A stretch of DNA of 33,497 nucleotides from Acidimicrobiaceae bacterium (GTDB lineage Bacteria; Actinomycetota; Acidimicrobiia; Acidimicrobiales; Aldehydirespiratoraceae), in the NCBI GenBank assembly GCA_018699415.1, contig JABIQM010000177.1, forward strand, positions 1 to 33,497. The letters are read 5' to 3'. Positions 21,300 through 33,497 of the stretch are shown here, piece by piece (position 1 is the first letter of the stretch; each line of letters opens with the position of its first letter). The notes beneath the pieces were generated by a model. The model ran no database searches, was not told the origin of the DNA, and saw only the letters and a program-made list of their open reading frames with translations. The translations under genes were made by a program, and so were the position numbers.

Positions 21300-21668
21300 T
21301 CAGCCGAACAGTTCGGCGAGGCGCTCTTTCGCCTTCGCCTCACCGAGTGGACGACCGATGATGGCCTTGTCGTCGGCAACGATCACCGGGCGCTGAAGCA
21401 GCTTGGGGTAAGCCAAGAGAACGGCCACGACTGCATCGGTGTTGCCGACATAGTCGTCCTCGTTCAGTTTGAGCTTGGTGAACTGCGCATCCTTGCGGAC
21501 AAGGTTCTCGACGGGGTCTTCCAGCTTGGCGATGATCTCGCGCAGCGTCGCTTCATCAGGCGGCGTCTTCATGTAGCGAATCTCTTCAAACTCGACGTTC
21601 ATCTCCGTGGCGACCACCACGGCATTTTTTGACGAGTTTCAATTGGGGTTGTGGTAGATGGCAGTCAT
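21300..21668 (-). CDS. ArsC/Spx-family thioredoxin-fold reductase, predicted selenoprotein (UGA = Sec10)
   Basis: If UGA at 21641-21639 is read as selenocysteine, the ATG at 21668 gives a 122-residue protein beginning MTAIYHNPN-U-NSSKNAV. ArsC-family proteins begin with IYHNPxC-xxS-[RK], and the UGA falls exactly on the catalytic Cys, giving a U-x-x-S active site with no gap in the alignment. The rest is a complete ArsC-like domain: NVEFEEIRYMKTPPDE, DPVENLVRKDAQF, LLAYPKLLQRPVIV and IIGRPLGEAKAKERL. Without recoding, the first downstream start (GTG 21620) would lose the whole active site. A SECIS-like hairpin follows the UGA. The likely role is thiol/selenol redox chemistry; arsenate reduction is possible but unproven. 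It lies 12 bases after a small hypothetical gene. Selenocysteine machinery genes are not in this window. Confidence 0.8.
21589..21638 (-). promoter_or_regulatory. Candidate bacterial SECIS element
   Basis: Directly after UGA on the minus strand: a 6-bp base stem (AACUCG, 21638-21633, with CGAGUU, 21594-21589), a symmetric 10+10-base internal loop, a 6-bp upper stem (CCGUGG, 21622-21617, with CCACGG, 21610-21605) and a 6-base apical loop UGGUCG. The apical loop starts 22 bases after the UGA and has G at its second position, both within the published bacterial SECIS consensus as I recall it. Confidence 0.7.
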
Positions 21669-21680
21669 TGGTTCATGATC

Positions 21681-21971
21681 TTAGGACCACGAACCGGCTC
21701 CGGGGACATCGGTTGCCTGGTCATCGATCGCATCAACCGGCGGCCACCGCTCTTTCACCAACGACGCGACCACTACTGGAAACTCTGCAGCGAACCGAGC
21801 GAGGCCAGCAAGCAGTTCGGACTCGACGCGAACGGTGTGGAGTAGCACATAGCGGCCGAAGAACTCGGACTCTGTCTCAATGTCGAGGCGAGTCGCTGCG
21901 GAGAAGAGCTTCAAGGCCACGTTCTCGTGCGCGATCAACGTCGACGGCGCGTTGATAGGCAGTCGCGCCAC
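21681..21971 (-). CDS. Hypothetical protein upstream of the ArsC-like gene
   Basis: 96 residues from the GTG at 21971. No family recognised. The protein is mixed alpha/beta in look (STLIAHENVALKLFSAATRL, FFGRYVLLHTVRVESELLAG, FAAEFPVVVASLVKERWPP) without signal peptide or membrane helix. The frame stays open and looks codon-like above the GTG (reading AQVFRKHHGATTSG) but has no ATG, GTG or TTG there, so the true start may be different or lost. It ends 12 bases before the ArsC-like ATG, suggesting one transcript. A TATAAG at 22026-22021 could be the -10 of that transcript. Confidence 0.55.
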   Translation of the reverse strand: MARLPINAPSTLIAHENVALKLFSAATRLDIETESEFFGRYVLLHTVRVESELLAGLARFAAEFPVVVASLVKERWPPVDAIDDQATDVPGAGSWS

Positions 21972-22482: not shown

Positions 22483-22958
<476 letters not shown>

Positions 22959-33024: not shown

Positions 33025-33456
33025 TCAGGCGCAGCAGGTGCCGCCGTCTCCGACCGTGCTCTTGAACGGGGCTATGGACTCGGTACCGAAGTCCTGGGTG
33101 TCGGCGGTCTTGACGTACCATTCCCACCGTTCGGCGTCTGGGCCAGTCACCCAGGTCTCAGTTTTGCCGGCATAGCAACAGACGGTGTCGTTCACCCCGG
33201 TGGTGTCGAGCCCGCTCTCTTCGAGGCGAGCCTCAGCAGCCTCAACCTGCTCACTGGTCTCGGTCTCTACTCCCAGATGATTGATCGTGCCGCCACCATT
33301 AGCGTTTTCGAAGAGCACGAGCTTGAGCGGCGGGTCGGTGATGGCGAAGTTGGCGTAGCCCGGCTTGCGCTTGTACGGCTCGGTGGCGAAGAGCTTGCTG
33401 TAGAAGTCAACGGCTTCATCGATATCACTGACGTCAAGAGCGAGTTGCAGACGCAT
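33025..33456 (-). CDS. ArsI/CadI-family VOC metalloprotein
   Basis: 143 residues from the ATG at 33456, with GGAGAAA just upstream as ribosome site; ATGs at 33468 and further up are alternatives. It is a vicinal-oxygen-chelate fold (RLQLALDVSDIDEAVDFYSK, NGGGTINHLGVETE, RWEWYVKTAD). The family's vicinal Cys pair is C93-C94 in TVCCYAGKTETWV, with metal-ligand candidates H60 and E113, and the C-terminus ends GGTCCA with another Cys pair. ArsI cleaves the C-As bond of trivalent organoarsenicals; CadI is a cadmium-induced relative. It is co-directional and nearly contiguous with the DUF2085-like gene. No arsR is in the window, though the gene lies at its edge. Confidence 0.88.
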   Translation of the reverse strand: MRLQLALDVSDIDEAVDFYSKLFATEPYKRKPGYANFAITDPPLKLVLFENANGGGTINHLGVETETSEQVEAAEARLEESGLDTTGVNDTVCCYAGKTETWVTGPDAERWEWYVKTADTQDFGTESIAPFKSTVGDGGTCCA

Positions 33457-33497
33457 GGGTTTCTCCATCTTTGCGGACACGGGATTTCGAGACGATA

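Follow-up and report, generated by a model that had tools for sequence, protein, structure and literature searches.

An ArsC-family gene of Acidimicrobiales with an in-frame UGA at the catalytic cysteine position almost certainly encodes a selenoprotein

Introduction

Arsenate-reductase selenoproteins of the UxxS type were described from the Sargasso Sea in 2005, with 14 sequences (Zhang et al., PMC1088965), and 77 sequences of the type, named 'ArsC 1', were found in the GOS data in 2008 (PMC2398784). A TIGR00014/UxxS row is also included in a 2026 review (PMC13188914). The enzyme class has been known since 2005, and the preliminary description of the present locus was right in linking it to marine metagenome surveys (PMC1088965, PMC2398784); what is added here is its fixation across a family of uncultured actinobacteria. 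On selenoproteins of Acidimicrobiia, including such fixation across an Acidimicrobiales family, we found no paper in the open-access literature.

The gene analysed here lies in a stretch of 33,497 nucleotides from an Acidimicrobiaceae bacterium, called the window below. Its predicted product shares with the UxxS selenoproteins the PF03960 domain, selenocysteine (Sec) in place of the catalytic Cys, the UxxS motif (here U10-N-S-S13), a bacterial SECIS just downstream of the UGA and widespread Cys homologues. Compared by description, the two differ in that the UxxS reports concern ocean metagenomes, whereas here the gene belongs to a genome that has all of the Sec machinery, and an Acidimicrobiales family conserves it throughout. 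With R773 ArsC, the glutaredoxin-coupled arsenate reductase encoded on E. coli plasmid R773 (PDB 1I9D, 1JZW), the protein has in common the predicted fold (TM 0.82 to this E. coli enzyme), the position of the nucleophile, the H-N-P-x-C/U-x-x-S motif and three arginines; it differs from it in having Sec for Cys, a shorter C-terminus, 27% identity and a gene outside an ars operon. The UxxC selenoprotein 'ArsC 2' (cd03032; NF041106) also combines an ArsC-like fold with Sec at the active site, but the window protein is of the UxxS type and has zero cysteines. Spx and YffB share the ArsC-family fold, but their sequences match less well: TIGR01617, the model for Spx, scores 58 bits (cut-off 75), below the arsC model.

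Reading frame of the gene

Read on the minus strand with TGA as Sec (U), the frame begins MTAIYHNPN-UGA-NSSKNAV, ends in LAELFG and contains a single internal UGA (Table 1), directly followed by the residues NSSKNAVVVATEMNVEF. The preliminary description had proposed this frame, in phase with an ArsC-like domain and with the strand unstated, and had placed the UGA at the redox-active Cys in an ungapped alignment. Both proposals agree with our data: the frame goes on into a complete ArsC domain, and the alignment with Cys homologues runs ungapped through residue 10. It had also anticipated that mechanical gene calling would start at the GTG and lose the active site, and the table-11 ORF listing indeed gives 21300-21620 from the GTG, 106 aa, with the active site missing. 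We conclude that the apparent stop codon is almost certainly a selenocysteine at the reactive position of the enzyme, and that the GTG at 21620 is very probably not the true start.

Table 1. Positions in the window of the Sec ArsC gene, its recoding signals, catalytic codons and conserved neighbour
Feature	Position	Strand	Remarks
Predicted Sec-containing ArsC-family reductase gene	21300..21668	minus	ATG 21668, stop TGA 21302-21300; 122 aa
In-frame UGA, codon 10	21641-21639	minus	read as selenocysteine at catalytic Cys position
GTG used as start in mechanical gene calling	21618..21620	minus	within SECIS stem
Bacterial SECIS hairpin CCGUGGU-GGUC-GCCACGG	21605..21622	minus	7 bp, loop 23 nt after UGA
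Apical loop GGUC	21612..21615	minus	G at loop positions 1-2, as in bacterial SECIS model
Arg58 codon	21495..21497	minus	counterpart of Arg60 in E. coli R773 ArsC
Arg93 codon	21390..21392	minus	counterpart of Arg94 in R773 ArsC
Arg106 codon	21351..21353	minus	counterpart of Arg107 in R773 ArsC
PII (GlnB/GlnK-type) gene	22483..22926	minus	conserved upstream neighbour; not in Sec system itself

ArsC family membership and catalytic residues

When the UGA is translated as Cys, the product scores 52.9 bits against the Pfam ArsC model (PF03960, gathering cut-off 24), and the GTG version without the N-terminus scores 38.3 bits. Among all NCBIfam models TIGR00014 arsC is the best, at 85 bits with Cys replacing Sec, a score that does not reach the equivalog cut-off of 106 bits. 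The AlphaFold prediction has a pLDDT of 95 and its best PDB matches are arsenate reductases. The PF03960 score above the gathering cut-off, together with the thioredoxin-like ArsC fold seen with AlphaFold and Foldseek, places the protein in the ArsC family.

An alignment of 62 relatives showed that C/U10, Y32, R58, D60, R93, P94, R106 and P107 are invariant, and 59 of the 62 have no Cys apart from residue 10. We take U10, R58, R93 and R106 to be the counterparts of Cys12, Arg60, Arg94 and Arg107 of R773 ArsC, combining the alignment with what is known of that enzyme; for Arg106 the correspondence is drawn from the IGRP motif, the full-length profile match and the known features of R773 ArsC. 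On this assignment, equivalents of the R773 catalytic set (Cys12/Sec, Arg60, Arg94 and Arg107) are present, and they are invariant in the 62 sequences.

Genomic neighbourhood and physiological role

The PII gene is found upstream of the ArsC gene in 19 named relatives, and in at least one relative an acyl-CoA synthetase gene lies between the two. The neighbours comprise PII, a response regulator and others; no arsR, arsB or acr3 adjoins the gene, and a search of the genome for Acr3 and ArsB gave no recognisable match. Arsenate resistance as the role of the protein is weakened by this absence of an ars operon and of Acr3/ArsB in the genome. Directly upstream of the Sec ArsC gene there is a 96-aa ORF of unknown family (21681-21971, minus strand), whose homologue in same-genus relatives has about 38 extra internal residues. 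The contig also carries, at its edge and 11 kb from the Sec ArsC gene, an arsenic-related gene for an ArsI/CadI-family metalloenzyme (33025-33480, minus strand; NF041414, 174 bits, cut-off 116).

By analogy with the ArsC family, the likeliest activity is arsenate reduction, and we lean, with some reserve, towards arsenate as the substrate. The same selenoprotein could instead have a job other than arsenate resistance, as a general Sec-based thiol redox enzyme with a housekeeping role, either deglutathionylation- or demycothiolation-like or reducing another oxyanion. The position of the gene outside an ars operon and beside PII in the named relatives, and the empty searches for Acr3 and ArsB, are consistent with such a role, as is the retention of the gene in 48 of 51 same-family genomes, which is core-gene-like rather than typical of a resistance cassette. 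Against it stand the invariance of the arsenate-binding residues known from R773 ArsC, the arsenate reductases found as nearest solved structures and the ArsI/CadI gene on the same contig; moreover, the exporter search covered Acr3 and ArsB. We consider the general redox role a serious possibility, if the lesser one. A broader proposal makes the Sec-dependent ArsC-type reductase a housekeeping enzyme in the core genome of Acidimicrobiales families, fixed in the chromosome beside PII, in genomes without ArsB or Acr3, and serving a function other than arsenate detoxification; within the gene family Sec and Cys would have been exchanged repeatedly and the SECIS hairpins would be unrelated. We put this proposal forward tentatively, and as a whole it seems rather unlikely.

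Conservation of the UGA codon among relatives

Exactly one TGA was found inside the gene in all 48 family genomes that have it, at codon 10 in every family locus read; these are independent assemblies, and the internal codon is never TAA or TAG. The named relatives are mostly MAGs of Acidimicrobiales/Acidimicrobiaceae. The preliminary description had held that TGC or TGT in close relatives, together with a sequencing error behind the TGA of this strain, would overturn its reading, an objection that fails, the close relatives having TGA as well (48/48). A nonsense mutation, a pseudogene or a sequencing error at the catalytic Cys would look alike if a lone in-frame TGA were seen in one MAG, but the conservation across independent assemblies, the intact frame on both sides and a SECIS conserved with compensatory changes refute this explanation, which we rejected as having a negligible probability.

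The sample at order level consisted of 397 genomes, and among the close matches listed 117 genomes have the TGA and 30 do not. In the 21 non-UGA genes that were read, from the order and from outlying genomes, the codon is TGC in every case. Among the matches listed, selA is present in 113 of the 117 UGA genomes vs 7 of the 30 non-UGA genomes (Fisher p = 6e-17, relatedness uncorrected), and the four UGA genomes without a selA match are 73-83% complete. A quick tree of 91 proteins requires at least six Sec/Cys changes, two of which are forced by its strongly supported branches alone. Outside the order, in the wider class, both TGA-containing and TGA-free forms occur.

Some genomes carry a second ArsC-family gene that is divergent and likewise contains an in-frame TGA (G026:C13, G027:C215, G028:C1:1418436 and G030:C205; also L121 and L125). 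These genes share genomes with the main gene and are possibly a further Sec ArsC paralogue.

Selenocysteine machinery

The genome that holds the window is an assembly of 3.45 Mb in 333 contigs (98.7% complete, 5.6% contaminated), in which the window is contig C259. The preliminary description had let its reading depend on selA, selB, selD and tRNA-Sec, and all four were found in this genome, so that the argument from their absence falls away. selB (L001) scores 291.6 bits (cut-off 242) and is adjoined by selA, at 391.3 bits and above its cut-off; a tRNA-Sec with anticodon UCA (L009) and selD (L017, C144:3350-4285; 358 bits) complete the set. The genome is a MAG, and the sel genes are on contigs other than the window's. 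Contamination is an unlikely source of them, because selA is present in all 18 same-family genomes of the order sample, the window's own included. Here selD is a selenoprotein gene in its own right: a single in-frame TGA occupies the catalytic position, in the motif SHGAGUGCK.

A genome-wide reassignment or readthrough of UGA as Trp, Gly or Cys would leave the frame open equally well, with TGA standing for any residue. The gene and its same-genus relatives nevertheless end in TGA themselves, the full Sec machinery is present and the homologues have Cys at the site, not Trp or Gly; we therefore rejected reassignment, which we regard as extremely improbable.

The SECIS hairpin

The bacterial SECIS model consists of a stem of 4-16 bp and a loop of 3-9 nt with G at its first two positions, located 16-37 nt from the UGA and with an MFE of at most -7.5 kcal/mol (PMC13188914). 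The hairpin of the window agrees with this model in its stem of 7 bp, its loop of 4 nt with G at positions 1-2, its distance of 23 nt and its core energy of -11.8 kcal/mol. The 57 nt from the UGA fold with -20.8 kcal/mol (z = -3.5). No Rfam family matched the window, a result that is not evidence against a bacterial SECIS.

In the main clade, represented by 34 distinct sequences, 96.6% of the stem cells are paired and 18 cells have changed on both sides. The covariation score of 0.308 was reached in 0 of 500 shuffles, whose mean was 0.164, and slid controls gave at most 0.053. In the alignment, the most frequent covariation between the two sides of the stem joins a V-to-L change (GUG to UUG) to a T-to-E change (ACG to GAG). 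Synonymous codons in the loop region are fixed, with GCG in 52/52 Ala and GTC in 55/55 Val, whereas other conserved columns mix synonyms; the mean synonymous entropy is 0.34 bits inside vs 1.08 outside. A bSECIS-like stem of at least 6 bp was found in 62 of 67 UGA sequences vs 8 of 22 Cys sequences, and in 18% of shuffles. By folding energy of the 36 nt after the codon alone, UGA and Cys genes could not be told apart (means of -12.6 vs -13.4 kcal/mol, Mann-Whitney p=0.43), while the positional hairpin, the covariation and the codon conservation do separate them. This covarying SECIS, absent from the preliminary description, adds independent support at the sequence level for the selenoprotein reading.

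Two other hairpins were observed in the same gene: a second UGA clade (L124, L126, L128, L129, L131-L133) has CAAUGC-CGUGC-GCAUUG at 17 nt after the UGA, while L122/L123 have a third type, GCAGCAC-UGGAU-GUGCUGC.

The start at GTG 21620, which would give a truncated and inactive ArsC-like domain and is what mechanical ORF calling puts out, is hardly credible and was rejected, given that different families conserve the codons ahead of the UGA (YHNPN/H), that the GTG falls within the SECIS stem and that the protein would lose its first strand together with the active site.

Proposed mechanism

We hold it to be very highly probable that the gene encodes a functional selenoprotein with an ArsC fold, a judgement that leaves the substrate aside. 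The UGA, the SECIS, the machinery, the conservation and the catalytic residues were read in the sequences, and from them we infer Sec insertion itself, catalysis and the thiol partner, as follows. SelB with selenocysteyl-tRNA-Sec would decode the UGA at codon 10 on meeting the downstream SECIS hairpin, and would place selenocysteine where ArsC-family reductases hold their sole essential Cys. The product is predicted to adopt the fold of the glutaredoxin-coupled ArsC of the R773 type. As in the mechanism of the ArsC family, the selenolate of U10, activated where helix 1 begins, would attack arsenate, with Arg58, Arg93 and Arg106 presumably holding the selenolate and the oxyanion substrate. Since the protein itself lacks cysteine, resolving and reducing the Se-As(V) adduct would probably require a redoxin and a low-molecular-weight thiol from outside.

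Significance

The general picture of selenoprotein function is unchanged by this finding. Because the catalytic residue is lost in routine gene calling, a widespread selenoenzyme family would be annotated as inactive fragments or missed. The 117 UGA and 30 non-UGA genomes, with several Sec/Cys exchanges and more than one SECIS type, form a natural set for the question of when bacteria retain or lose Sec, and selenium use emerges as a conserved trait of many Acidimicrobiales.
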